Below are positions 5,581 through 16,893 of a stretch of DNA of 16,893 nucleotides, piece after piece. Origin of the DNA: an uncultured Flammeovirgaceae bacterium (lineage in GTDB: Bacteria; Bacteroidota; Bacteroidia; Cytophagales; Cyclobacteriaceae); contig CAMPJM010000024.1 in the NCBI GenBank assembly GCA_946886805.1, positions 1 to 16,893 on the forward strand. The letters are read 5' to 3'. Every line of letters starts with the position of its first letter. The stretch's first letter is position 1. The notes under the pieces are model-generated. The model had not been told where the DNA came from. It made no database searches and worked only from the letters and a program-made list of their open reading frames with translations. The translations under genes and the position numbers were made by a program.

Positions 5581-5997
5581 ATGTTTGTATATAACCATTC
5601 CCTAAGAGTACGATATGCTGAAACTGACCAAATGGGATATGTTTATTATGGTAATTATGCAACCTACTATGAGGTAGCACGGGCTGAGTCCCTCAGAAGC
5701 CTGGGCCTTTCCTATAAAGAAGTAGAAGAATCAGGTGTTATAATGCCGGTTTTGCGGAATAGTTCACTGTACATAAAACCCGCCCGTTATGACGATTTGC
5801 TTGACATTAAAGTAATATTGAAATCATTACCACAAGCAAGGATCACTTTCCATTATGAAATTTACAATTCGGCTACGCTAATACATTCCGGAGAAACTAC
5901 GCTTGTTTTCGTGAACAAGGAAACCTTTAAGCCCTGCAAAGTGCCAGAATTAATGGAAAATGCTTTAAAACCATTCTTCAATGAGGGAAAAGATTAA
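5581..5997 (+). CDS. Acyl-CoA thioesterase, YbgC/FadM-type hotdog fold
   Basis: A cytoplasmic hotdog-fold thioesterase (4HBT family) of 138 residues, the usual single-domain length. The YbgC/FadM signature is complete: RVRYAETDQMGYVYYGNY at about 9-26, with the expected catalytic Asp at position 16, then a long helix carrying YYEVARAE at 29-36. It should hydrolyse an acyl-CoA or related thioester; the substrate cannot be read from sequence. The gene lies 14 bases behind mltG and overlaps the next gene by 17 bases, so translation of the three is probably coupled. The link to envelope genes is context only. In proteobacteria ybgC accompanies the tol-pal genes, but none of those are here. Confidence 0.9.
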   Translation: MFVYNHSLRVRYAETDQMGYVYYGNYATYYEVARAESLRSLGLSYKEVEESGVIMPVLRNSSLYIKPARYDDLLDIKVILKSLPQARITFHYEIYNSATLIHSGETTLVFVNKETFKPCKVPELMENALKPFFNEGKD

Positions 5998-6940
5998 AAA
6001 GAAAATTGGAGGATCCAGAAGATTTCTCAGATTTTTGGTCTTCCTGAAAAATTTGAGAATTAAAAAAAGAAATGTTTCTTTATATGATGTAATCATTGTT
6101 TTTATTGACAAAGTCAGGAAAGATGAAATTTTTGAGCGGGCAAATAGTGTTGCCTTTAATTTCACGTTGGCTATTTTTCCAACAATTATATTTTTATTTA
6201 CGCTTATCCCTTATATTCCATATCCTCCGGCATTAGATGTTAAAATCCTTCGATTTCTGCAAGATGTAATGCCGTATAGCACCTATGAAGCGGCGGCGGG
6301 TACAATCGAAGACATTGTGAGTAAACCTCGAGGTGGATTGCTTTCTTTTGGTTTTGTTTTAGCCTTGTATCTAGCCACCAATGGCATGAGTTCTTTGATG
6401 CTGGCCTTTAACAAATGTTACCGGACAGTGGAAAGAAGAGGATTTTTAAAAACACGTTTAATTGCTACCATACTTACTTTTACCCTTGCCTTTGTGGTGT
6501 TTCTTGCAATTTTATTACTTATTGTAGGCCAGTTTTTTATTACGGCTATGCAGCATTATGTATTTATGGAGGACTCTGTCGTTTATCTGATCATACTCCT
6601 AAGATTCATAGTAATATTTATAATATTTCTCACAGGAATATCCTGTATTTATTATCTGGCACCTGCTGTACATGACCGATGGAGATTCTTTTCATTTGGC
6701 TCCCTCATTGCTACCCTCTTAAGCTTGGGCATTTCCTATGGCTTCTCGTTTTATATCAACAATTTTGGAACTTACAATAAGGTTTACGGATCTATTGGGG
6801 CACTTATAGCCATTATGATTTGGCTCTTCATTTTGAGCGTGGTACTTTTAATAGGATTCGAAATAAATGCAAGTATTGATACCGCCACAAAATTAAATCT
6901 CGACAAAAAAATAAATGCCAAAGCTGGTTTAGAGACGTAA
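5981..6940 (+). CDS. YihY/BrkB family inner-membrane protein
   Basis: A polytopic membrane protein of 319 residues with about six helices (roughly 57-79, 118-142, 160-186, 199-224, 236-258, 271-296) and a basic N-terminus. The family hallmarks are present: ERANSVAFNFTLAIFPTII at 52-70, LYLATNGMSSLMLAFNKCY at 129-147, and the C-terminal NFGTYNKVYGSIGALIA at 261-277. The family was once called RNase BN in error; its function is still poorly defined. The start at 5981 overlaps the end of the thioesterase gene by 17 bases. That overlap and the basic leader suggest translational coupling as the last gene of the mltG operon. Confidence 0.9.
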   Translation: MREKIKKKIGGSRRFLRFLVFLKNLRIKKRNVSLYDVIIVFIDKVRKDEIFERANSVAFNFTLAIFPTIIFLFTLIPYIPYPPALDVKILRFLQDVMPYSTYEAAAGTIEDIVSKPRGGLLSFGFVLALYLATNGMSSLMLAFNKCYRTVERRGFLKTRLIATILTFTLAFVVFLAILLLIVGQFFITAMQHYVFMEDSVVYLIILLRFIVIFIIFLTGISCIYYLAPAVHDRWRFFSFGSLIATLLSLGISYGFSFYINNFGTYNKVYGSIGALIAIMIWLFILSVVLLIGFEINASIDTATKLNLDKKINAKAGLET

Positions 6941-6947
6941 AGCGTCT
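6933..6947 (+). terminator. Weak hairpin at the convergent yihY end
   Basis: AGACG and CGTCT form a 5-bp stem around the yihY stop codon without a U-tract. A second inverted pair, GTTTAGAG (6927-6934) and CTCTAAAC (7003-7010), brackets the 69-base gap between the two convergent genes. Either could help end transcription from both sides, but neither is a textbook terminator. Confidence 0.25.
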
Positions 6948-7009
6948 GTTGCAAGACCGCTCTATGTATTCGGGTTAAGTTGCTTTGGGCAGTTATATTT
7001 ACCTCTAAA

Positions 7010-8074: not shown

Positions 8075-8428
8075 CTATCCTATTCTTACTTTTTTCTGCA
8101 CAAACGAAACGGAGATAACAAAAATCAAATTTATAAAAAAGCTTAATATCATAATTTGAAAAAAATCAGTCTTGTAATGATCATAAATCATAAAAACTAT
8201 CACTCCGTAAAAAATAGAAAGTCCCATTATAGATTCAAATAACTGCTTCGGAACCTTTGAAATCTTTGTAGATAGGTAAAATGTTAATATGGGTGTTAAT
8301 ACGAACCAAAATAAGAATAGAGTAAACAAATTCCAGCCGACCAACATCGAAAACGGAAAAAAAACTATGGAAAGACCAAGTGGAATCGCAAAAATTCCTT
8401 TTAGGCTGTTAGTAAGTTCCTTTTTCAT
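8075..8428 (-). CDS. Small hypothetical membrane protein, four helices
   Basis: I do not recognise a family. The 117 residues are mostly hydrophobic, with helices at about 12-32, 33-53, 66-83 and 89-110. There is a Lys-rich N-terminus and a basic tail, QKKVRIG. No catalytic motif is visible. The start ATG follows an AT-rich stretch; AGGAGGAA (8446-8453 on the minus strand) is 17 bases upstream, too far to act as a normal ribosome binding site. It lies 194 bases beyond the AraC gene on the same strand, so it is probably a separate transcript. Base composition is AT-rich like the core genes. Confidence 0.6.
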   Translation of the reverse strand: MKKELTNSLKGIFAIPLGLSIVFFPFSMLVGWNLFTLFLFWFVLTPILTFYLSTKISKVPKQLFESIMGLSIFYGVIVFMIYDHYKTDFFQIMILSFFINLIFVISVSFVQKKVRIG

Positions 8429-8622
8429 TATAAATATATTTACGGTTCCTCCTGACGATCAAACTGCTTCAATTAAAAATACAACTTTTTAGATATTTAT
8501 AGAAGCCTTTCTTGAAAATAAATTTATTAAAGTTTCGTATTTACTTTAATGAGTTTAAGAGGCGTATTAAGCTTCCACACTGCTCTTGTATGTAGGCATT
8601 GCAAAGCATTCAGGTTTAAAAA

Positions 8623-9546
8623 TCAATTAAAGGAAGCCCGAAATTCCAATGGTGAAATCTGGGTTTTGTTCTTGAATAACTTACTAAATGATTGCGGATG
8701 TTCAAAGCCCAGCGCATACGCAATTTCGCTCACAGAAAGTTCGGTGGTAGATAATTTCTCCTTGGCTTTTTCAATTAGTTTATTGTGAATGTGCTGTTGC
8801 GTGCTCTGTCCAGTGAGTGTTTTGAGCAAGCCGCTTAAATAGTTGGGAGACACGTTGAGCTTATCAGAAATATCCTGCACCCTTGGCAAGCCATTTAAGA
8901 CTAAATCATTACTGTTGAAATAATCTGCAAGGAGGTTCTCTAACTTATCGACGGTTTTATGATTAGATATTTTGCGGGTAATAAATTGACGGTGGTAAAA
9001 CCGATCTGCATAGTGGAGCAACAACTCGATCTGGGATATAATAATGCCCTGGCTGAATTTATCGATGTTGCTATGATATTCCTGCTGAATATTTTGCATA
9101 ATTCCCACAATAACGCCTTCTTCCTTTTCTGAAAGAAACAGCGATTCATTGACCGTGTAGCCAAAAAAATCATATTGTTTGATTGCCTTTGCTAGCGAAG
9201 TATTCCATAAAAAATCAGGGTGCACAAGCAACAACCACCCCGAGGGCTGCGTGCTTTCTTCACCATCAATCACTTCTACGCTAAAAACCTGTCCTGGTGC
9301 GATAAAGGACATTAATCCTTCATCAAAATCAAATTCCTGCTGTCCGTACCTGAACTTGCCACACACATCTCTTTTTAAGCCTATCGTATAAAAATCCTGT
9401 ATCCAGGTAACCCGGTTATTTTCGGTGGAATGTTTGATTTGACTATAATCCACCAAACTGATTAAGGGGTGCTCTGGAGTAGACAAACTTCTGATTTTAT
9501 GAAATTCACTAATGGTCTTGATTCTATGAATTTGTTTGCTTGCCAT
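8623..9546 (-). CDS. AraC family transcriptional regulator
   Basis: A DNA-binding regulator of 307 residues, typical for the family. The N-terminal cupin-like sensor contains GKFRYGQQEFDFDEGLMSFIAPGQVF. The C-terminal AraC/XylS domain holds two helix-turn-helix units: VQDISDKLNVSPNYLSGLLK at about 223-242, and LSVSEIAYALGFEHPQSFSKLFK at about 270-292, followed by SPLEFR. A TTG at 9588 in frame would overlap the preceding gene. I chose the ATG at 9544-9546, ten bases after that gene's stop, because its MASKQIHRIKTISEFH opening is usual for this subgroup. It is the last gene of an NmrA - VOC - membrane protein - AraC run, an arrangement that allows autoregulation. It is the only AraC protein in the window and therefore a candidate for the 21-bp-spaced direct repeats at 13452-13485 and 14100-14133, but that link is inference. 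Confidence 0.9.
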   Translation of the reverse strand: MASKQIHRIKTISEFHKIRSLSTPEHPLISLVDYSQIKHSTENNRVTWIQDFYTIGLKRDVCGKFRYGQQEFDFDEGLMSFIAPGQVFSVEVIDGEESTQPSGWLLLVHPDFLWNTSLAKAIKQYDFFGYTVNESLFLSEKEEGVIVGIMQNIQQEYHSNIDKFSQGIIISQIELLLHYADRFYHRQFITRKISNHKTVDKLENLLADYFNSNDLVLNGLPRVQDISDKLNVSPNYLSGLLKTLTGQSTQQHIHNKLIEKAKEKLSTTELSVSEIAYALGFEHPQSFSKLFKNKTQISPLEFRASFN

Positions 9547-9556
9547 GTTTGTTGTT

Positions 9557-9805
9557 TTATGATTTCCCGCGTGAAAGCCATTTGTCAAACACCTTATTAT
9601 AAAAGGGGAGTAAAATATATGACATAAGCGGCACTAATATAATCGTAAGAATCAATGTTCTCACAGGGATTGGGGATTTTGCAAGAAAATCCCCAAACAG
9701 TAGAGATATAACCGTTATCAGCGGATAGATCGCGAGCCAAATTAAAAAGACCTTTTTATGTTGCAAGTTTTTCATTATTTTTTTTACACTTGATATTATA
9801 CGCAT
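9557..9805 (-). CDS. Two-helix membrane protein like the COG3224 C-terminal domain
   Basis: An 82-residue protein with two predicted membrane helices (about 19-38 and 47-68), joined by a short loop with SPIPVRT, and a basic end. The pattern W-x-AIYPL...P-x-PVRTL...VPLMSY...P...F-x-KWL matches what I know as the C-terminal membrane segment of COG3224-type antibiotic-biosynthesis-monooxygenase proteins. The monooxygenase half is absent. It could be a stand-alone membrane subunit or a degenerated remnant that kept its frame. The tight spacing (13 bases after the VOC gene, 10 before araC) favours a working gene. The reaction or partner is unknown; the YgiN-like monooxygenase at 14353-14634 is one possible partner. 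Confidence 0.7.
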   Translation of the reverse strand: MRIISSVKKIMKNLQHKKVFLIWLAIYPLITVISLLFGDFLAKSPIPVRTLILTIILVPLMSYILLPFYNKVFDKWLSRGKS

Positions 9806-9818
9806 TTTTGTTTACTAA

Positions 9819-10265
9819 TTATCCGATATCTTCACAAAATTCGATGCTGTTACCAAAAGGGTCCTTAATAAAGGCCACTCGTTTGCCAATAGCCTGAACA
9901 CTGAAATTCCGTATGATGCTTATGTTTCGTTTATTAAGTTCCTCGATTGTTTTATCTAAATTTTCAACATTGAAACATAAATGGTTGTAGCCAGATTTTA
10001 CTTCTTCATTATTTAACTTTTCATTGCTATTATTAGAAATAATCTCAATAATAAAATCATCGTCATTGGGTGGTGCGATAAAGGCCCGCTGAATTTCACC
10101 GACTATCCATTTACGAATAATCCTAAAATCAAGAATTTCTTCGTACCACTTTAATATTTCAATGTACTTCGCAGTACGGATTCCAACGTGCCTGGCCTTA
10201 ATATCACTAAACTTACTGTGCGTATTTTCTTCTGAAAATGCAAGGGCTATGATTTGGTTATCCAT
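9819..10265 (-). CDS. VOC superfamily protein (glyoxalase/dioxygenase fold)
   Basis: A cytoplasmic protein of 148 residues with one vicinal-oxygen-chelate domain made of two beta-alpha-beta-beta-beta modules. The metal-ligand positions look intact: His26 in ARHVGI, Glu74 in FIIEII, His95 in GYNHLCF and Glu142 in SIEFCED. The loop KDPFGNSIEF at 134-143 is the common VOC ending. The family includes glyoxalase I, ring-cleavage dioxygenases and antibiotic-binding proteins, so the substrate cannot be assigned. It starts 12 bases after the NmrA-like gene and ends 13 bases before the next, so the genes are almost certainly co-transcribed. A role in handling a reactive carbonyl or aromatic compound with the NmrA-like partner is plausible but inferred. 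Confidence 0.85.
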   Translation of the reverse strand: MDNQIIALAFSEENTHSKFSDIKARHVGIRTAKYIEILKWYEEILDFRIIRKWIVGEIQRAFIAPPNDDDFIIEIISNNSNEKLNNEEVKSGYNHLCFNVENLDKTIEELNKRNISIIRNFSVQAIGKRVAFIKDPFGNSIEFCEDIG

Positions 10266-10277
10266 AAATTGAATATT

Positions 10278-11174
10278 TTATTTTTGATTAAAGGTTTGCG
10301 CAAACTCCTTTGCGAAATCTTCCAACTTCACTTCTCCAAATGTAGGATTGTTCAGGTAATAATCTTCCGCCAATAAGCCATTACGAAGACCGGCATACAT
10401 TTCAACCAAACCCTCTGCAATAGTTGGGTTCATTCCAGCGGCAACTAGACCATTTTTTGTTTGTTCGTCCGTAATGAGGAGCCATTCCAGATCCGGCTTC
10501 CCAATTGCTTTGCCTATGATACGCGCAGTTTCTTTACCGGTAACTTCTTCGCTTGCGACGTAACGGACTTTTCTGCCAACAGGCGGAGCCAACAGTTCTT
10601 CTGCGACTGAAGCGGCAATATCTATGGGAGAAACCCAGGGAATGATGTCTTCTGCGCCATAGTTTGCTGCGATAATACCTTCACTTTTTATCATCTCTGC
10701 ATAGCCATATAAATTATAGTAGAAAGAAGTTGGGCGAATGTGGGTAATAGCTACATCAGAAGGCAGCTCATCAATAATCTTCTCAACATCGTGCGCACCA
10801 AGTAAAATTCCATTGCCCTTGTCCATATGAGCGCCAATGCTACTAAGATTTACCAAGTGCTTTACGCCCGATTGTTGAACAGCGTGCGCATAGTTATGGC
10901 CAAGTCTTCTATAATAAGCCAATAGGTCAAGGTTATGGTCAAAGTAATTGTTCGGCGGCACCATACTATATACCGCATCTGCTCCGGTAAAAGCACCTGT
11001 TAAAAAATCCACATCTTCCAACGAGCCAATGGCTGCCTTAGCACCCAGTGCCATAATCTCCTCTTGTCGCTTCGGCTCACTGCTGATAACAGTCACCGAA
11101 TGGCCTTTTTTCACTAATGTTTCGGTTAAAGGTTTGCTGATGTTTCCTAAGGAACCTGTTATTGTGATTTTCAT
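10278..11174 (-). CDS. NmrA-like NAD(P)-binding protein (atypical SDR)
   Basis: A 298-residue Rossmann-fold protein. The dinucleotide motif TGSLGNIS follows the first strand MKITI; the third Gly of GxxGxxG is replaced by Ser. The rest matches the NmrA / NAD(P)H-quinone-reductase-like group: SVTVISSEPKRQEEI, GADAVYSMVPPNNY, VKHLVNLSSIGAH, ITHIRPTSFYYN and the VSPIDIAASVAEEL segment. There is no Tyr-x-x-x-Lys catalytic pair, as is usual for NmrA-like proteins. These act as redox sensors or as reductases of quinones. An upstream TTG at 11180 is also in frame, but the ATG at 11172-11174 begins directly at the first beta strand and is preferred. It is the first gene of the operon with the VOC protein, the two-helix membrane protein and AraC. 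A 25-base remnant of a sister gene start lies upstream at 11464-11488. Confidence 0.87.
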   Translation of the reverse strand: MKITITGSLGNISKPLTETLVKKGHSVTVISSEPKRQEEIMALGAKAAIGSLEDVDFLTGAFTGADAVYSMVPPNNYFDHNLDLLAYYRRLGHNYAHAVQQSGVKHLVNLSSIGAHMDKGNGILLGAHDVEKIIDELPSDVAITHIRPTSFYYNLYGYAEMIKSEGIIAANYGAEDIIPWVSPIDIAASVAEELLAPPVGRKVRYVASEEVTGKETARIIGKAIGKPDLEWLLITDEQTKNGLVAAGMNPTIAEGLVEMYAGLRNGLLAEDYYLNNPTFGEVKLEDFAKEFAQTFNQK

Positions 11175-11489
11175 TTTCAATATGTTGTTTAAAAAGATTT
11201 AAAATGGTCAATTTTTAATAGTTATCCTGTAGACTCTTGTAGTTCAATACTTTATGATTCAATTGCCTTGTGCTTGTAGCGATACATGCTGCCACTTTTC
11301 CCAGGCCTCTATTCAAGTCGGTTTCGTATTAAAATTGATGCTAACTATTTTTTAATTGTTAATTCCTTTGTGCCGTCAATCAATTAAACGACTGTCGGGA
11401 ATGCCAAAAGAGACTATCGTACCTTTGATTTAAACATTTTGCTGAATATTCGGAGGTTCGTTGGAGAACCTGTTATTGTGACTTTCATT
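11175..11489. other. Intergenic region upstream of the NmrA operon
   Basis: This 315-base stretch holds no complete gene. It should contain the promoter of the NmrA operon, but I find no good TAnnTTTG box. TAG-containing elements spaced 21 bases apart (11217-11229 and 11238-11250) weakly recall the direct repeats upstream of the SDR and DUF1097 genes. At its far end lies the broken NmrA-like gene start described separately. Confidence 0.5.
11464..11488 (-). pseudogene. 5' remnant of a second NmrA-like gene
   Basis: On the minus strand, ATG at 11486-11488 opens MKVTITGS, nearly identical to the MKITITGS start of the intact gene at 11174. The first 23 bases differ at one position only. Identity stops abruptly after GGTTC. 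The frame then continues with unrelated codons (PTNLRIFSK...) to a stop about 25 codons in. It begins one base after the stop of the PQQ-dehydrogenase gene. The simplest reading is that a duplicated or older NmrA-like gene was deleted, leaving only its first codons. Conservation of the MKxTITGS motif alone could explain the protein match but less easily the DNA match. Confidence 0.55.
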
Positions 11490-12581
11490 TTATTCTAATA
11501 TTATTCTTAGCAATTTATCGTCTCCCGGTCTCGGTGCTGTTCCTCCCCAAGTGGCGTCATCAGTATTTGAGCTAATTAACCAAAGAGCCCCGTCAGGAGC
11601 GACTTCGACCGCCCTGATCCTGCCATATTCTTCTACCAGGTGTGCCACAGGTTCCCCATTGAGCATTCCGTTTTCCACTGGTATCTGGTATAACCGTTGC
11701 CCGCCTAGCGCTCCCATCCATAAAGAACCGCGCGCATAGGCCATTCCCGAGGGGGAACAGTCATCCGGATGAAATACTGCAAGCGGTGGTTCTCCAAAAT
11801 TTCCCTCAGTTCCTTCCGACTGAGGCCAACCGTAGTTTAGTCCGGCTTCTATCACGTTCACTTCGTCCCAGGTTCTATGGCCCAACTCCGAAGCATAAAC
11901 AGTACCGTCCGGCCCAAATGCAATACCTTGTACATTGCGATGTCCATAGGAATAGACGGGGCTGCCGTTTAGGTTTCCCTCGGGAATGGAGCCATCTATT
12001 TTGATTCTTAAAATCTTTCCATTCAATGATCCTGCATCTTGCGCTAACTCGGGCTGAAATGCATCACCGGTACTGATCCACAGATTGCCATCTTGCCCAA
12101 TTTCCAGGCGGCCGCCATGATGCCTGTTAGCATTTGTTATCCCCTCAAGCAATACTGTAGTTACTTCAAGATCGCTGAAATCTTCTGCGATCCTAATAGA
12201 TACAACCCTGTTGGAAGGCCGGGCTGATAGATAAGCGTAAATAGTCCTATCGTCTTCAAAGGAAGGTGAAGTTTCCAGTCCCAGCAGACCTCCTTCCGCG
12301 CTAAAAGATACACCAGGGACGGTACCAACAAGTTGAGGAGTCCCTCCCTCCGCAGGTATCCTGTGAATCTGGGCAGTTGTCCTTGATGAAATCAATAATG
12401 AGCCATCGGGCAGAAAGGTTAGTCCCCATGGAGCAGTCAAACCTTTAGCCATTTCAGTTATCTTCCCTAAATTCTGCTGCTGGTACTGCTGCTCCGTTGG
12501 TTCATGCTCACTGATATTATTGTCCGACTGCTCGCAAGACAAGAGAGAGAATGTAAATATAATTTGTGTTAACCGAATCAT
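11490..12581 (-). CDS. PQQ-dependent sugar dehydrogenase, lipoprotein
   Basis: A soluble-glucose-dehydrogenase-type six-bladed beta propeller (GSDH family) of 363 residues, which oxidises sugars or related polyols with PQQ and passes electrons to the respiratory chain. A short signal peptide ends in the lipobox LLSC, with lipid-bearing Cys16 followed by EQSDNN and a low-complexity linker. The mature protein is thus membrane-anchored outside the cytoplasm. Family motifs seen are [12 protein letters not shown] at 49-60, [22 protein letters not shown] at 152-173 with the conserved His pair 154-155, LNGKILRI at 186-193, [11 protein letters not shown] at 212-222, LNYGWP at 248-253 and [12 protein letters not shown] at 320-331. 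The protein is shorter than Acinetobacter GDH-B and closer to the Asd/YliI type, so glucose specificity is not assured. It lies 35 bases behind the SDR gene and is probably co-transcribed. No PQQ biosynthesis gene is in the window. Confidence 0.88.
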
Positions 12582-12616
12582 AAGTTCATGGTTTATTGGC
12601 TATCATTACTTAGCAC

Positions 12617-13387
12617 CTATATTGCTTGCCCACCGGACACTTCGATGCGCTGGGCATTGATCCAATAGGCCTCTTCCGTACAAAGAAAGGCAACGACAGG
12701 CCCAATATCTGTTGGCAATCCTACCCTGCCCAAGGCTGTGAGGGAAGCAATGTGGTCGTTTACTTGTTTGTTATCCCTAACAAAACCTCCACTAAAATCT
12801 GTCTCAATAGCACCTGGAGCAACTATATTTACCCTTATCCTACGCTGAGCCAACTCCTTGGCCTGATATTTTGTAAGGGTTTCCAGAGCACTCTTCATGG
12901 ACGCATAGGCAGAAGAGCCAGGATAAATAATCCGCGTCAATCCAGAAGAAATATTCACAATCCCTCCACCTTCGTTCAGGTACTCCAAGGCCTGTTGCGT
13001 GAAAAAATAACCCGCTTTGAAATGTATATTTAGCAAGTCATCAAATTGAGAAACCGTTGTTTCAGCAAAAGGAGTCGATAATCCGGTTCCGGCATTATTG
13101 ATCAGAAAGTCGAATTTGGAAGTACTGAACGTCTCTTGAAGTCGCGGCCTCAGTTCATTACTGAAAAAGCCAGCGTACTTGTTATGGTCTGAAACATCCA
13201 GTTGCAATGCCAGGGCTTTTTGTCCGCTGTTTTCAATTTCGGCCACTACTGTATCTGCAGCTTGCTTGTTGCTTTTGTAGGTGAGTACAACATTTATTCC
13301 TTTTTTAGCAAGATTGATGGCCATGTCCCTGCCCAACCCACGGCTTCCTCCGGTTACTAATGCAATTTTGTTTTCCTGTGTGTTCAT
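12617..13387 (-). CDS. Classical short-chain dehydrogenase/reductase (FabG-like)
   Basis: A cytoplasmic NAD(P)-dependent oxidoreductase of 256 residues. The whole classical SDR set is present: TGGSRGLG at 13-20 (cofactor), DVS at 64-66, NNAG at 97-100, Asn120, Ser148 in NISSG, and catalytic Tyr161 and Lys165 in SAYASMKSA, then PGAIETD at 191-197. The C-terminus LGRVGLPTDIGPVVAFLCTEEAYWINAQ...SGG is typical of FabG-like members. The substrate cannot be assigned; fatty-acid synthesis is unlikely because no other fab gene is near. It is the first gene of an operon with the PQQ dehydrogenase. Its upstream region carries a promoter-operator block nearly duplicated in front of the DUF1097 gene, so both genes probably answer to one regulator. 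Confidence 0.92.
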   Translation of the reverse strand: MNTQENKIALVTGGSRGLGRDMAINLAKKGINVVLTYKSNKQAADTVVAEIENSGQKALALQLDVSDHNKYAGFFSNELRPRLQETFSTSKFDFLINNAGTGLSTPFAETTVSQFDDLLNIHFKAGYFFTQQALEYLNEGGGIVNISSGLTRIIYPGSSAYASMKSALETLTKYQAKELAQRRIRVNIVAPGAIETDFSGGFVRDNKQVNDHIASLTALGRVGLPTDIGPVVAFLCTEEAYWINAQRIEVSGGQAI

Positions 13388-13423
13388 CTTTTTTATATTT
13401 ATTTTTTTGCTTATTTGTTGCTA

Positions 13424-13485
13424 CAAAGTTCCGTTATGATCATTGATTGGATTTAGCCAAATCTCTTGTTGTTGTAGTCAAAAGT
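13424..13485 (-). promoter_or_regulatory. SDR promoter with tandem direct-repeat operator
   Basis: Minus-strand GAACTTTG (13424-13431), one base from the TAnnTTTG consensus, lies 36 bases before the SDR start. Twenty bases upstream of it is TTTAGCCAAATCT (13452-13464), and exactly 21 bases on is TGTAGTCAAAAGT (13473-13485), both written on the plus strand. There is no -33 TTG, and the first repeat covers that position. This layout fits an activator-dependent promoter with two half-sites on one DNA face. The same layout recurs at 14072-14133. Confidence 0.6.
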
Positions 13486-13494
13486 TGCTATATC

Positions 13495-13510
13495 CTCTCT
13501 CTCTCTCTCT
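13495..13510. repeat. (CT)8 dinucleotide repeat
   Basis: Eight uninterrupted CT units lie nine bases outside the SDR operator, in the gap between the SDR and DUF1097 genes. Such tracts can change length by slippage. Because it lies upstream of the operator, length changes would not alter promoter spacing. Confidence 0.85.
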
Positions 13511-13552
13511 TAAAGAAGAATGTTGGCTATTGGATGGATATTAACAGAAGGC

Positions 13553-14047
13553 TTATTGGGTGGCTTGTTCATTCGCAGCGACATTCCCGTGGACAAATTT
13601 TGTTAGGATTGTATCCAATGTATAGCCGAATAAAAATCCGACAGCCAGAGGGAGTAATAATAAACGGGCAATGGAAACCACCTCCAGGTGCGGTTCTACA
13701 CCGAAGAAGACAATCAAACCGATAAACCAGGCAGCAAGATCCCTCAAACCTTTTATCTTAGTGAGGAAAGCCAACGAGCCGATAAGCAGGAATACGGCCA
13801 AGTATAAACCCCACATACCAATGCGCTCAGAAAAAAGTTTTCCAAACATCTCTATCAAGACGCCAAGGCCAATCCCCAAAATAATCTGAAGATAAATGTT
13901 AAGCGATTTCTTTAGTGATTTACCAAAGAGATAGAAGCTAACCCATGCTATGAATAAAACCCAACCAGGCCATCCAATTGAAATTGACAGGAAAACGGCC
14001 AGTGTGCCAAATAACCCCATTATGGCTCCAAAGATTAATGTTTTCAT
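13553..14047 (-). CDS. DUF1097-like integral membrane protein
   Basis: A 164-residue membrane protein with about six helices (roughly 4-22, 27-43, 51-70, 77-95, 105-118, 126-146). Length, helix pattern and the segments WPGWVLFIAWVSFYLFG and LGIGLGVLIEMFGK resemble the DUF1097 family (E. coli YcdZ type), whose function is not known to me. The ATG at 14045-14047 begins directly at the first helix. It has its own promoter-operator region at 14072-14133, closely similar to that of the following SDR gene. The two are therefore likely co-regulated but separately transcribed, with a 165-base gap between them. Assignment to DUF1097 is from pattern memory and moderately sure; membrane location is clear. 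Confidence 0.65.
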   Translation of the reverse strand: MKTLIFGAIMGLFGTLAVFLSISIGWPGWVLFIAWVSFYLFGKSLKKSLNIYLQIILGIGLGVLIEMFGKLFSERIGMWGLYLAVFLLIGSLAFLTKIKGLRDLAAWFIGLIVFFGVEPHLEVVSIARLLLLPLAVGFLFGYTLDTILTKFVHGNVAANEQATQ

Positions 14048-14352
14048 ATGTTTTTGCTATTTTAGTTTCTACAAAGCTCAGCAATAATCCAAAGATAGAT
14101 GTAGCCGGATCTATGGTTGTTGTAGCCGAATCTTCCAGGTCAAAGAGGAGGATAGCGAAAAGGTCGTTCTGCTAGAATTTGGGAACAGGGGCAATAAAGG
14201 AGCATATTAAAAAAGGGATCAAACGGAAATGGGCGGAGTTCAATACATAATCCACGAATGGATTACCATGCACCCATTGCGTGAATTAGTAATTGAAAGC
14301 AGGAAAAATCCTGAACAGGCTCCTCAAATAGCATTCTAGAACGTTAATTCGA
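14048..14352. other. Intergenic region upstream of the DUF1097 gene
   Basis: This 305-base gap carries the DUF1097 promoter-operator in its left third. The remainder (14140-14352) has only a 36-codon plus-strand frame, 14229-14339, beginning MGGVQYIIHEW. It has protein-like composition but no recognisable family and no ribosome binding site. No terminator for the YgiN-like gene is visible. Confidence 0.5.
14072..14133 (-). promoter_or_regulatory. DUF1097 promoter with tandem direct-repeat operator
   Basis: Minus-strand GAGCTTTG (14072-14079) lies 24 bases before the start codon. After a 20-base gap come TGTAGCCGGATCT (14100-14112) and TGTAGCCGAATCT (14121-14133), plus-strand notation, spaced by exactly 21 bases and identical at 12 of 13 positions. 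A second box, TATCTTTG (14090-14097), matches TAnnTTTG fully, but its position is not conserved in the SDR promoter. It could be the true -7 with the repeat acting differently. Confidence 0.6.
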
Positions 14353-14634
14353 TCATTTCAGCATCTGAACCATGGGCGGGCACTCCAACATTGCAGGAAC
14401 ATTTTTAATAAAATCCAAAATATAAGGCTGCTCATTATGTAAATCCAATCCTTCCTGATTCTCCCAAACCTCATAGAAAATAAATTTATTCGGCTCATCC
14501 AGACTTTGATGTAAATCATACTGCAGGCAGGCTTTTTCATGCCTTGTTTGCACTACCAGATTCTGCAGCTTTCCTTTAACTGCCTCAGCATATTGGGGCT
14601 TACTTTCTATGATTGCTATTAAGTATATTCGCAT
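14353..14634 (-). CDS. Antibiotic biosynthesis monooxygenase-like protein (YgiN-like)
   Basis: A 93-residue dimeric alpha-beta-barrel ABM domain, the usual single-domain length. It shows CLQYDLHQSLDEPNKFIFYE at about 36-55, then WENQEGLDLHNEQPYI, with the conserved His66. The family includes YgiN quinol monooxygenase, polyketide monooxygenases and haem-degrading proteins. The CLQYDLHQS-x-D-x-P-x-x-FxFYExW pattern points to the YgiN/quinol group, which needs no cofactor. It lies 50 bases behind the extended SDR gene, which in turn follows mdaB. In E. coli ygiN also lies beside mdaB, where the two are proposed to cycle menadione-type quinones. That context supports the assignment, but the substrate is inferred. 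Confidence 0.85.
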   Translation of the reverse strand: MRIYLIAIIESKPQYAEAVKGKLQNLVVQTRHEKACLQYDLHQSLDEPNKFIFYEVWENQEGLDLHNEQPYILDFIKNVPAMLECPPMVQMLK

Positions 14635-14684
14635 TATTTGATTTCTTTTGATGTTTTTAAATATTTTACAGAAACGATTACAAG

Positions 14685-15575
14685 CTATATATAATCATGT
14701 ATGGAAACATGCTTTGGCCGCCATCCAAGTAGGGTTCGCGCTTTGTCGGCATTGCAGCGGCTGTTTGAAGCAAAACCAAAATATGCTCCGGCAGGGCCAA
14801 ACAACTGAACTGCTTCGTCTATACCAATGGATATTGTCTGCTCTGCTCCTAATTTCTTACTGATGGACTTAGCGATTTCTTTCAGGGATGTTTCTCCATT
14901 TTCTGCATAAAACAATGCACCCGGTTTGGCTTTTTCCAGAGTATTGAGGTATAGTTGAGCAAGATCCTCAATATGTACCGTGGACCAAATATTCTCTCCT
15001 TTTTCAATATAGAAGCCGACACCTTTTTGGTTTGCGATTTTTAATAGAGCGGGTACCTGTATGCTATCCTTCTTTAACCCCAAACCTTCGCCGTATACCA
15101 TTGGCGGCACAATTACAATGCTACGAATGTTCTGCGTTGCTGCCTGAAGAACGTGGTTATTGATAATTACCCGGTGAGCCATCTCGAGACGAGGTTGCAA
15201 AGGAATATCTTCCGTGAAGACAAAATCAGTTTTTTCGCCATTGTCTTTGCCACCAAAAATGGCCGAGCCTGATGTAAAAATAAAGGTTTTGCCTGTTCCT
15301 TTTAGAGCTTCCAGAAAAGTATCTACTACATAGGGATTATCTGCAGAGTCTGCGGTATGAATAATTGCATCGGCTTTAAGGGCTTGCTCCCTCATTAATG
15401 GCGCATCATGTGTGGTGCCCAATACTGCGGCCACTCCCAGTGCCTGCAATTTTTCAGCATCTGCTTCTTTTCGCACAAGTCCCGTGACATGATACCCCTT
15501 TCTGATTAATAAGCTGGCTACGGAGCCACCAATATAGCCGGTAGCTCCAGTGATAAACACATTTTTAATATTCAT
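14685..15575 (-). CDS. Extended SDR, NAD-dependent epimerase/dehydratase-like
   Basis: A cytoplasmic Rossmann protein of 296 residues. The cofactor motif GATGYIGG spans 10-17. It is followed by HVTGLVRKEADAEKL at 29-43, an AIIHTADSAD segment, FIFTSGSAIFGG at about 98-109, IVPPMVYGEG, and the late WSTVHIEDLAQLYLNTLE motif typical of COG0451 proteins. The catalytic Ser region is present, but the usual Tyr-x-x-x-Lys is missing: the matching helix reads MAHRVIINNHVL. This is common in the NmrA/YwnB-like and isoflavone-reductase-like side of the superfamily, and the protein may bind NAD(P) without classic dehydratase chemistry. The C-terminus stops soon after LGWRPKHVSIHDYI, slightly short. It lies between mdaB and the YgiN-like gene, same strand, and is probably part of the same response operon, though the 133-base gap to mdaB holds a large palindrome. 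Confidence 0.86.
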   Translation of the reverse strand: MNIKNVFITGATGYIGGSVASLLIRKGYHVTGLVRKEADAEKLQALGVAAVLGTTHDAPLMREQALKADAIIHTADSADNPYVVDTFLEALKGTGKTFIFTSGSAIFGGKDNGEKTDFVFTEDIPLQPRLEMAHRVIINNHVLQAATQNIRSIVIVPPMVYGEGLGLKKDSIQVPALLKIANQKGVGFYIEKGENIWSTVHIEDLAQLYLNTLEKAKPGALFYAENGETSLKEIAKSISKKLGAEQTISIGIDEAVQLFGPAGAYFGFASNSRCNADKARTLLGWRPKHVSIHDYI

Positions 15576-15636
15576 AATATGTTTGTTTTAATGGTGAGTT
15601 AGGGCTTGATATAAAATAACTTGAACATTTATACTT

Positions 15637-15703
15637 GTTTTTTTGTCCTTTCTCTACGTTGTCCCGAAAGCTTTCGGGACGCCTTGATAAAGAACAAAAA
15701 AAC
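15637..15703. repeat. Compound palindrome (67 bp) between mdaB and the SDR
   Basis: The centre is a perfect 20-bp palindrome, GTCCCGAAAGCTTTCGGGAC (15661-15680). It is flanked by outer arms GTTTTTTTGTCCTTTCTC (15637-15654) and GATAAAGAACAAAAAAAC (15686-15703), which pair at 16 of 18 positions. In RNA from either strand it folds into one long stem with a small internal loop. As transcribed from mdaB, no U-run follows the inner stem, so it is not a standard terminator. It may attenuate or stabilise the transcript. CCCGAAAGCTTTCGGG-type palindromes are, as I recall, frequent between genes in Bacteroidota. Confidence 0.8.
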
Positions 15704-15708
15704 TGCCT

Positions 15709-16386
15709 CTACTCTGTACAACTTATTTCGTAACAAGCCCTTAGTGTTGATGTTGAAATTTTTGTTTTGATAGCTAAACTTCCATCCTCAGGAAAAATCT
15801 GCCTCAGATGCTCCAGGTACTGCCCTCGGTAGTTGGCAATCTTTGCTTCGTTTACATTTTTTTCCATGTCATGAAAATGAAAGCTTTGTAAAGCTTCCAT
15901 GCCCGTAAAGGCATTCATTCTGTGGAATCCAAACATAACTCCTTCGTCCACAGATTTTTGACAAAAGAATTCTCCCTGTATCGTAAACGCAGTTTCAGGT
16001 GCATTCCAGCTTGTTGTTAGCATATATTTGGTGCCGTGCAACAGGCCACCTGTACCATAATTTATAGCAGGATTTTTGGAACTCCTGCCGTCGCTGTGAT
16101 AAATACCTTTGTTATGCCCCACGGTAAATACCACATCTATGTACTCTTTCAAACCATGCGGCAACTGAAACCACCAAACAGGTGTGTGATATATAATTAA
16201 ATCAGCCCAAACAAATTTTTCGACCTCTTCGTCGGGATCGTATGGCTGGTTAATGTCTGTGTTTTTGACTTCAAAACCATTCATGTTATTAAAAAATGTT
16301 GCTGTTTCAGCTGCAATGGTGGCATTAAATCTTCCTCCTGAGTGGCCAAATTGCTGGCCTCCGTTAATGATGAATATCTTTCTCAT
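15709..16386 (-). CDS. mdaB: NAD(P)H:quinone oxidoreductase, MdaB-like
   Basis: A flavodoxin-fold FAD/FMN-dependent reductase that performs two-electron reduction of quinones and protects against redox cycling. It is cytoplasmic, 225 residues. MdaB signatures run through the protein: INGGQQFGHSGGRFN at 7-21 (flavin phosphate loop), EEVEKFVWADLIIYHTPVWWFQLP at 53-76, LKEYIDVVFTVGHNKGIYHSDGR at 79-101, YGTGGLLHGTKYMLTTSWNAP at 110-130 and FHRMNAFTGMEAL at 154-166. The conserved fold ends near 200 (RQIFPE). The last 25 residues (DGSLAIKTKI...ISCTE) are an unusual tail that runs almost to the palindrome at 15637-15703. A LysR gene diverges upstream. TAATTTTG on the minus strand (16411-16418), 24 bases before the start, is a full -7 match. 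The ATG start gives the usual family N-terminus. Confidence 0.92.
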   Translation of the reverse strand: MRKIFIINGGQQFGHSGGRFNATIAAETATFFNNMNGFEVKNTDINQPYDPDEEVEKFVWADLIIYHTPVWWFQLPHGLKEYIDVVFTVGHNKGIYHSDGRSSKNPAINYGTGGLLHGTKYMLTTSWNAPETAFTIQGEFFCQKSVDEGVMFGFHRMNAFTGMEALQSFHFHDMEKNVNEAKIANYRGQYLEHLRQIFPEDGSLAIKTKISTSTLRACYEISCTE

Positions 16387-16410
16387 AGTTTGTTTTCAAT
16401 TATTTTTTTG

Positions 16411-16418
16411 CAAAATTA
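16411..16418 (-). promoter_or_regulatory. -7 box of the mdaB promoter
   Basis: Minus-strand TAATTTTG fits TAnnTTTG exactly and stands 24 bases before the mdaB start, a normal distance in this phylum. A -33 TTG is not at the standard spacing, in keeping with control by the divergent LysR regulator. Confidence 0.5.
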
Positions 16419-16430
16419 TCTCAACAATAA

Positions 16431-16479
16431 CTATTATAAAAATAAGATAAATCATACATTCGTATCAGAATTATAATAG
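16431..16479. promoter_or_regulatory. Candidate LysR operator region
   Basis: Two nested dyads lie between the divergent mdaB and lysR starts. CTATTATAA (16431-16439) and TTATAATAG (16471-16479) are exact reverse complements, 40 bases centre to centre. Between them ATAC-N4-GTAT (16454-16465) is a short dyad of the kind LysR proteins bind. The sequence is very AT-rich, so chance dyads are possible. Confidence 0.4.
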
Positions 16480-16489
16480 ATGATCTAAT

Positions 16490-16893
16490 ATGGTAAATCT
16501 TGAATGGTACCGCTCTTTTAAGGCAATCTATACAACCGGTACGCTTACGGGTGCTGCGGAGGCCTTATTTATTTCTCAACCTGGGGTAAGTCTTCATCTT
16601 AGTTCTCTGGAGAGCTATGTAGGTTATAAGTTGTTTGAAAGGACAGGCAGGAAAATGCTTCCGACAGAAAGAGGAAAGATATTGTACAATGTAGTAGTTG
16701 AACCCTTGTCCAAACTGGAAGATACTGAAAAGAATTTTCAAAAAAGCACCGAAAGACATACCCCTACCATTAGTGTAGGCATGTGCTTTGAAACTTTTCA
16801 GGTGACACTGGAGCAGTACATTTCTACGCTCCCTTTTAACGTGATCATTAGATTTGGTAATTATCCTGAAATGTTGGAAAATCTGGACAAAGG
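16490..16893 (+). CDS. LysR family transcriptional regulator, N-terminal part
   Basis: The gene is cut by the window end after 134 codons with no stop. The N-terminal winged helix-turn-helix is clear: residues 1-60 read MVNLEWYRSFKAIYTTGTLT, then GAAEALFISQPGVSLHLSSLE as the HTH, then GYKLFERTGRKMLPTERG, all typical LysR positions. The effector domain begins around residue 90 with TPTISVGMCFETF, a little atypical in having CFETF where many members have a Pro/Gly-rich strand. The ATG at 16490-16492 starts the family motif at the normal place. It diverges from mdaB with 103 bases between the starts, the standard layout for a LysR regulator acting on its neighbour, so control of mdaB and the genes behind it is likely but inferred. 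Confidence 0.92.
   Translation, partial: MVNLEWYRSFKAIYTTGTLTGAAEALFISQPGVSLHLSSLESYVGYKLFERTGRKMLPTERGKILYNVVVEPLSKLEDTEKNFQKSTERHTPTISVGMCFETFQVTLEQYISTLPFNVIIRFGNYPEMLENLDK

Follow-up and report, generated by a model that had tools for sequence, protein, structure and literature searches.

Two successive genes on the minus strand of a stretch of DNA from an uncultured Flammeovirgaceae bacterium, one for a classical SDR oxidoreductase and one for a DUF1097 membrane protein, are each preceded by a block of similar sequence. What are these blocks, and which protein would read them? The whole stretch, 16,893 nucleotides long and referred to here as the window, had already been interpreted from its letters alone, and this original prediction took the blocks for two copies of a promoter-operator unit with the direct repeats of an AraC-type activator. 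Our comparison of related genomes leads to a similar answer. We consider it likely that the blocks are operators of an AraC-type activator, most probably the one encoded at 8623-9546, which would co-induce the SDR gene, together with the glucose/sorbosone dehydrogenase-type (GSDH) gene, and the DUF1097 gene.

Positions 13421-13485 and 14069-14133 pair without a gap, as had been claimed, with 44 of 65 bases identical. When the alignment is shifted by 9 bases the count becomes 45/65, the highest for any direct ungapped pair of 65-mers in the window; at any other offset the best pair reaches 39/65. The repeat TGTAGYCRRAWCT occurs without mismatch at 14100 and 14121 and with one mismatch each at 13452 and 13473. 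With up to two mismatches allowed, 10 matches are present in the window, where 3.82 (sd 2.03) would be expected, and none of 200 shuffles reached 10. Read on the minus strand, in the sense of the genes, both blocks have the same layout: approximately GATTnGRCTACA twice with a period of 21 bases, a 20-base spacer and the box GAnCTTTG, as originally described. The proximal half-site of the SDR operator departs from the pattern in having CTAAA instead of CTACA. Identity between the two blocks is concentrated in the half-sites, the linker and the box, while the upstream flanks agree at 10/60 positions and the spacer at 12/24. A scan of the window for GRCTACA-N14-GRCTACA-N24-TTTG with up to four mismatches returned the two promoters (0 and 1 mismatch) and one further match, with 4 mismatches, within the Clp-type ATPase gene at 122-2668. 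Just upstream of the SDR operator lies a (CT)8 tract (13495-13510), missing at the same place in the nearest relative, which is possibly a tract of variable length.

Table 1 Predicted operator and promoter elements and the associated genes of the window.
Feature	Position	Strand	Basis or remark
Distal half-site, DUF1097 operator, GAAGATTCGGCTACA	14121..14135	-	Repeat match, geometry scan
Proximal half-site, DUF1097 operator, ATAGATCCGGCTACA	14100..14114	-	21 bases from distal half-site; at -33 position
-7 type box GAGCTTTG (SAnnTTTG), DUF1097 promoter	14072..14079	-	Predicted start ~14067
Distal half-site, SDR operator, CAACTTTTGACTACA	13473..13487	-	Repeat match, geometry scan
Proximal half-site, SDR operator, AGAGATTTGGCTAAA	13452..13466	-	Repeat match, geometry scan
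-7 type box GAACTTTG (SAnnTTTG), SDR promoter	13424..13431	-	Predicted start ~13419
DUF1097 membrane protein gene	13553..14047	-	Pfam PF06496, E 4.5e-21; first gene behind an operator
Classical SDR oxidoreductase gene	12617..13387	-	Pfam PF13561, E 1.3e-49; 84% relative in L001; second gene behind operator
Glucose/sorbosone dehydrogenase-type (GSDH) gene	11490..12581	-	Pfam PF07995; 35 bases downstream of SDR
NmrA-type oxidoreductase gene	10278..11180	-	Same gene row as AraC gene
AraC-type regulator gene	8623..9546	-	Pfam HTH_18 and HTH_AraC; proposed cognate activator

A genome scan with the window SDR yielded 80 loci. The nearest relative found was locus L001, from Parapedobacter tibetensis, with an SDR 84% identical to that of the window and the best match (85% identical) of the window AraC protein. 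There the AraC gene lies directly upstream of the SDR gene on the same strand, and the two repeats and GAACTTTG stand between them. Two further loci have the AraC relative directly downstream of the SDR gene and the repeats upstream of it (L002: SDR 71%, AraC 72%; L053: SDR 65%, AraC 59%). We called the genes of these three loci orthologues by match and place. That the best-matching AraC lies beside the best-matching SDR in all three agrees with the AraC-type reading.

We then aligned the SDR promoters of the window and L001 without gaps. The distal half-site is identical at 13/15 positions, the linker at 5/6, the proximal half-site at 11/15 and the box at 8/8, followed by 12/20 over the 20 bases after the box; the upstream flank agrees at only 11/60, i.e. 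at random, and the spacer at 8/20. According to the original prediction, repeats as diverged as their flanks in an orthologous locus would speak against it. What L001 shows is the reverse, since half-sites and box are kept beside a randomized flank.

In Sphingobacteriales, the element takes the form GATTnGRCTACA-N9-GATTnGRCTACA-N20-SAnnTTTG; a half-site spacing of N8 had given nothing in three genomes, and N9 proved to be the right spacing. Homologues of the window AraC at E 1e-40 or better are present in 245/300 genomes of the order. In a sample centred on such genes (29 loci, L088-L116, with 1.5 kb fetched; L087 was left out, being the L001 region), pairs of GRCTACA with a summed mismatch of at most 1 were found 19 times at period 21, and each of the other periods between 10 and 40 had at most one; the reversed sequences of the same loci gave at most 4 pairs at any period. 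Not all 29 loci are independent, as the sites of L101 and L102 are identical. Of the 20 period-21 pairs listed, 19 are followed by TTTG at a spacing of exactly 24 bases; other spacings within 10-44 were not seen. Counted by locus, 19 of the 29 have a site within 1.5 kb and 10 have none within the 1.5 kb fetched; in 3 of these 10, a pattern match lies ~1.9-2.7 kb upstream of the AraC gene.

The complete pattern, GRCTACA-N14-GRCTACA-N24-TTTG with at most one mismatch, gave 254 matches in 139/300 genomes of the order, against 57 matches in 51 genomes for the reversed pattern. We examined 30 of these pattern loci. In 27, the locus contains an AraC homologue and the site stands before an oxidoreductase gene, of the SDR family in 22 and of the NmrA type in 5; the SDR-family genes are only 23-31% identical to the window SDR, and for the NmrA-type genes the figure is 50-66%. 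The other three (L126, L139 and L140, each a one-mismatch locus) contain no AraC, SDR or NmrA match. A wider, selected set of 73 loci holds 66 sites in 62 loci, preceding 41 SDR, 18 NmrA and 3 AraC genes, 1 gene of another kind (L182) and the window DUF1097 gene; 2/66 have no assigned gene behind them (one in L180 and one before a decayed remnant in L001). Only the 27/30 is a fair count of linkage, because 40 loci of the wider set were picked from the pattern matches. In L111, L116 and L175 the operator lies directly before the AraC gene itself, which suggests autoregulation of this gene in some relatives.

Sequence, geometry, conservation and gene linkage could thus be observed directly, and they have the features of a class II-type AraC operator: direct half-sites ~21 bp apart, a fixed distance to the core promoter and a linked AraC gene. 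With repeats, period and box distance recurring beside AraC genes in many Sphingobacteriales, the proposed AraC-type operators are well supported by comparison.

Which AraC protein would bind them? The protein encoded in the window carries both C-terminal HTH motifs (Pfam HTH_18, E 1.3e-19; HTH_AraC, E 5.7e-16), and its N-terminal part has no Pfam match. An AlphaFold model based on a 12-sequence alignment (mean pLDDT 80.5, pTM 0.61) places the HTH helices at residues 234-245 and 284-295 and shows, with moderate confidence, a beta-rich N-terminal half, a candidate for a cupin-like ligand domain. In Foldseek the model was closest to AraC-family structures, and the regulatory domains of RhaR and AraC matched weakly (E 7e-4 to 6e-2). 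The helix of its first motif (HTH1) reads SPNYLSGLLK. The other PNYLSG AraCs with a paired site (L088, L104, L105 and L188) all have TAGATTCGGCTACA-like sites, as in the window (4/4), while SPDYLS[ST] helices are mostly paired with GGATTAGSCTACA half-sites and PSYLSD mostly with CTCAATTAGGCTACA. When the columns of HTH1 and HTH2 were tested, each of the 20 strongest residue-base associations fell in HTH1; at the site position with the best score, HTH1 columns took ranks 2 to 4 among 230, and HTH2 columns ranked low. As a control, however, columns of the N-terminal domain score as high as HTH1, so clade structure explains part of the association. The covariation of helix and half-site is therefore suggestive at most and was set aside as proof.

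The window AraC gene lies 3.8-4.4 kb from the sites, several genes downstream of them. This arrangement, with several genes in between, would also suit operators of the AraC type whose reader is an AraC paralogue encoded at another place in the genome, or a group of paralogues with a common half-site. Relatives do carry several AraC homologues (4 at E 1e-40 or better in G001, up to at least 7 in others), and several AraC subfamilies are paired with GRCTACA half-sites. In L001, though, the best-matching AraC directly adjoins the same SDR gene and operator, and across AraCs the same HTH1 helix goes with the same 5' half-site. We regard a paralogous reader as unlikely. Because of the recurrent AraC linkage, the L001 neighbourhood and the conserved geometry, the protein encoded at 8623-9546 is instead the likely activator; on these grounds of comparison, the AraC encoded a few genes away probably controls both the SDR and the DUF1097 promoters. 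The GSDH gene is probably on the same transcript as SDR, judging by the 35-base gap.

The window also contains an NmrA-type gene, which in some relatives stands behind the operator; at the promoter of this gene the scan for the full geometry found no intact copy. At ~11447-11489, ~290 bases upstream of the NmrA gene, there is what remains of the start of another NmrA-type gene (ATGAAAGTCACAATAACAGG...); it belongs to the repeat pairs that rank second in the window (39/65). The operator expected at ~11447-11489 may have been lost together with this start.

DUF1097 homologues are present in 4/300 genomes of the order (E up to 1e-8) and 1/395 genomes of the class (E up to 1e-12), and in none of these 5 homologue loci does the canonical site stand before the gene; that arrangement was seen in the window alone. 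L147 has one 4-mismatch match of the site pattern, away from the front of DUF1097. In three of the five loci (L147, L148 and L149), DUF1097 (45-47% identical) lies directly behind an SDR gene (34-37% to the window SDR) and is followed by a second SDR gene (29-31%); each of these three loci also contains an AraC-type gene, from a different subfamily. The remaining two, L150 and L191, show neither SDR nor AraC matches. Before the first SDR gene of the near-identical L148 and L149 we found TTGAATTTTGCAT and TTGGATCCTGCAT at period 21, followed after 25 bases by GACCTTTG. These repeats, of a half-site type seen mostly in Flavobacterium (see below) and at place -38, are weak taken alone, as period 21 ties with 16 and 22 in score. 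L147 has no such repeat before its first SDR gene.

We weighed whether the DUF1097 operator is the leftover of a lost AraC-controlled oxidoreductase gene, with DUF1097 merely lying behind an old promoter. Such a history has a counterpart in L001, where a second intact operator precedes a decayed remnant (6668-6964; an SDR-like start, then the tail of a GSDH gene). This shows that operators of this type can outlive their gene, and the canonical site before DUF1097 in 0/5 homologue loci fits as well. Against it, the DUF1097 site fits the pattern better than the SDR site does, with box and spacing intact, and in L147, L148 and L149 DUF1097 is flanked by SDR genes on both sides, close to an AraC gene. 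Because of these SDR-DUF1097-SDR rows we rate a leftover operator low, as quite unlikely. The small regulon originally proposed is supported by the joining of SDR and DUF1097 genes near an AraC gene in 3/5 loci, although the window's site stands before DUF1097 in none of the five. From the rows it follows that AraC-type co-regulation of SDR and DUF1097 may recur, as one operon elsewhere and through two promoters in the window.

How would such an operator act on its promoter? In the F. psychrophilum map, TAnnTTTG lies at -12 to -5 (PMC9723704); the starts in Table 1 are predicted from this placement, which puts the proximal half-site at ~-47 to -33. The Bacteroidota sigma-A element TTG at -33 is absent from both window promoters, and the proximal half-sites end there. 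Comparison with other loci strongly supports the claim that an AraC-type half-site stands in for the -33 element; among the pairs listed, 19/20 keep the 24-base distance to TTTG. The window boxes GAGCTTTG and GAACTTTG fail the sigma-A consensus TAnnTTTG: the A and the TTTG are kept, and T is replaced by G.

Across 59 distinct AraC-site pairs, an A stands three bases before TTTG in 59/59, a position outside the search pattern; the invariance of GRCTACA and TTTG is partly the result of selection, as both stood in that pattern. As its first base, the box has G 39 times, C 18 times and T once. By comparison, other upstream regions of similar loci, none of them mapped promoters, contain XAnnTTTG 131 times, with T as the first base in 64; the difference between 1/59 and 64/131 has a Fisher p of 3e-12, although the sites are not phylogenetically independent. 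The box is thus best described as TAnnTTTG with T exchanged for G or C. A site in the -33 place and a weak, off-consensus -7 box would suit an activator.

From these observations we infer binding, activation, dependence on a ligand and which AraC is the cognate regulator. Binding would be head to tail, by two monomers or one dimer, to half-sites 21 bp apart, with a consensus of approximately TAGATTCGGCTACA, and the proximal half-site, ending at ~-33, would substitute for the missing promoter element. Since the -7 box deviates from consensus, with GAnnTTTG instead of TAnnTTTG, basal transcription is expected to be low and to depend on occupancy by the regulator, probably loaded with its ligand. 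Between them, the promoters would co-induce the SDR gene along with the GSDH gene downstream of it, and the gene for the DUF1097 membrane protein.

The bound protein might instead be a repressor, or the repeats might belong to another regulator family such as HxlR; L001 has a member of that family (5788-6174; Pfam E 6.1e-26) encoded two genes away from its AraC gene. The occupied -33 place and the off-consensus box suit activation rather than repression, and 21-bp direct repeats just upstream of the promoter, with their steady linkage to AraC genes, make a repressor or an HxlR site improbable. That the similarity of the blocks is a chance match or a functionless duplication of promoter DNA is scarcely credible: one duplication could have produced both blocks, and their spacers are 12/24 identical, but the flanks (10/60), the concentration of identity in half-sites, linker and box, and the recurrence of the element in many genomes already contradict it.

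The same geometry, with other half-sites, was found further afield. Upstream of SDR genes in 21 loci, mostly of Hymenobacter, half-sites end in ...TCACCA, and in 15 loci, mostly of Flavobacterium, they resemble TTTGAATTTCGCAAA; period 21 is the best in both. Over the best 12-column window, period-21 identity is 0.67 in the Hymenobacter set (next 0.41) and 0.74 in the Flavobacterium set (next 0.58), with the half-site placed at -38 and -39 from TTTG. These 36 of 77 SDR loci (L001, L002 and L053 excluded) were picked by eye for a visible site, and many of the remaining 41/77 have none visible in the 150 bases upstream. With no selection, all 81 SDR upstream regions have their highest mean self-match at period 21 (9.94 of 13; next 9.33, at period 14). 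The AraC genes at the Hymenobacter- and Flavobacterium-type loci have different recognition helices. We put forward tentatively, at slightly less than even chances, a more general picture: a module of NAD(P)-oxidoreductase genes with linked AraC-type activators, spread widely in Bacteroidota, with frozen geometry (21 bp, and ~24 bp to TTTG), a detuned SAnnTTTG box in Sphingobacteriales and half-sites swapped between AraC subfamilies, HTH1 reading the variable 5' part and HTH2 the constant GGCTACA. DUF1097 would be a recurrent member, as operon partner of SDR or, in the window's lineage, with an operator of its own.

In E. coli, AraC is an activator that combines a ligand domain at its N-terminus with two HTH motifs. 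At araI1-I2 of PBAD it occupies a direct repeat of half-sites with a 21-bp spacing, of which the proximal half-site extends to the -35 region. The window operators equal araI1-I2 in form and differ in half-site sequence; they have a TTTG-type -7 box and oxidoreductase targets, in contrast to the -35/-10 promoter of PBAD. A second likeness is the AraC-type E. coli regulator YqhC, whose gene adjoins the NAD(P)-dependent reductase gene yqhD that it activates.

Direct repeats with 21-bp periodicity have been described for AraC-family regulators of Bacteroides, Bacillales and Enterococcus (PMC3870299). The predicted Bacteroides RhaR operators in that study resemble those of the window in regulator family, phylum and 21-bp direct repeat, and differ in having rhamnose genes as targets; the sections available to us make no mention of a -7 box distance, of SDR/NmrA linkage or of the window's half-site. 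Beyond this RhaR case, the papers listed in searches of the open-licence literature included no report of this AraC/oxidoreductase module. AraC operators with 21-bp repeats are thus already predicted in Bacteroides, and the window adds an oxidoreductase-linked case. AraC-type regulators are abundant in these genomes, and we found few reports on their DNA sites in Bacteroidota. The fixed spacing to the -7 box makes the targets of many of them predictable from sequence, and the natural pairs of helix and half-site are material on how AraC proteins choose DNA. The uncharacterised DUF1097 membrane family is here tied to oxidoreductase genes under predicted AraC-type control.

Some other features of the window were recorded. 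A search for sigma-70 type promoters in 11000-16893 returned 18 against 13.3 (sd 3.7) expected and was discarded, as the model is uninformative for Bacteroidota, and an Rfam search of the window gave no RNA family at gathering score. The gene row at 8075-16386 comprises SDR, NmrA-type, epimerase-type, flavodoxin-type, ABM and glyoxalase-type genes and may be a set that responds to stress from electrophiles or quinones. A perfect 18-base palindrome, TCCCGAAAGCTTTCGGGA, is located at 15662-15679, upstream of the epimerase gene.
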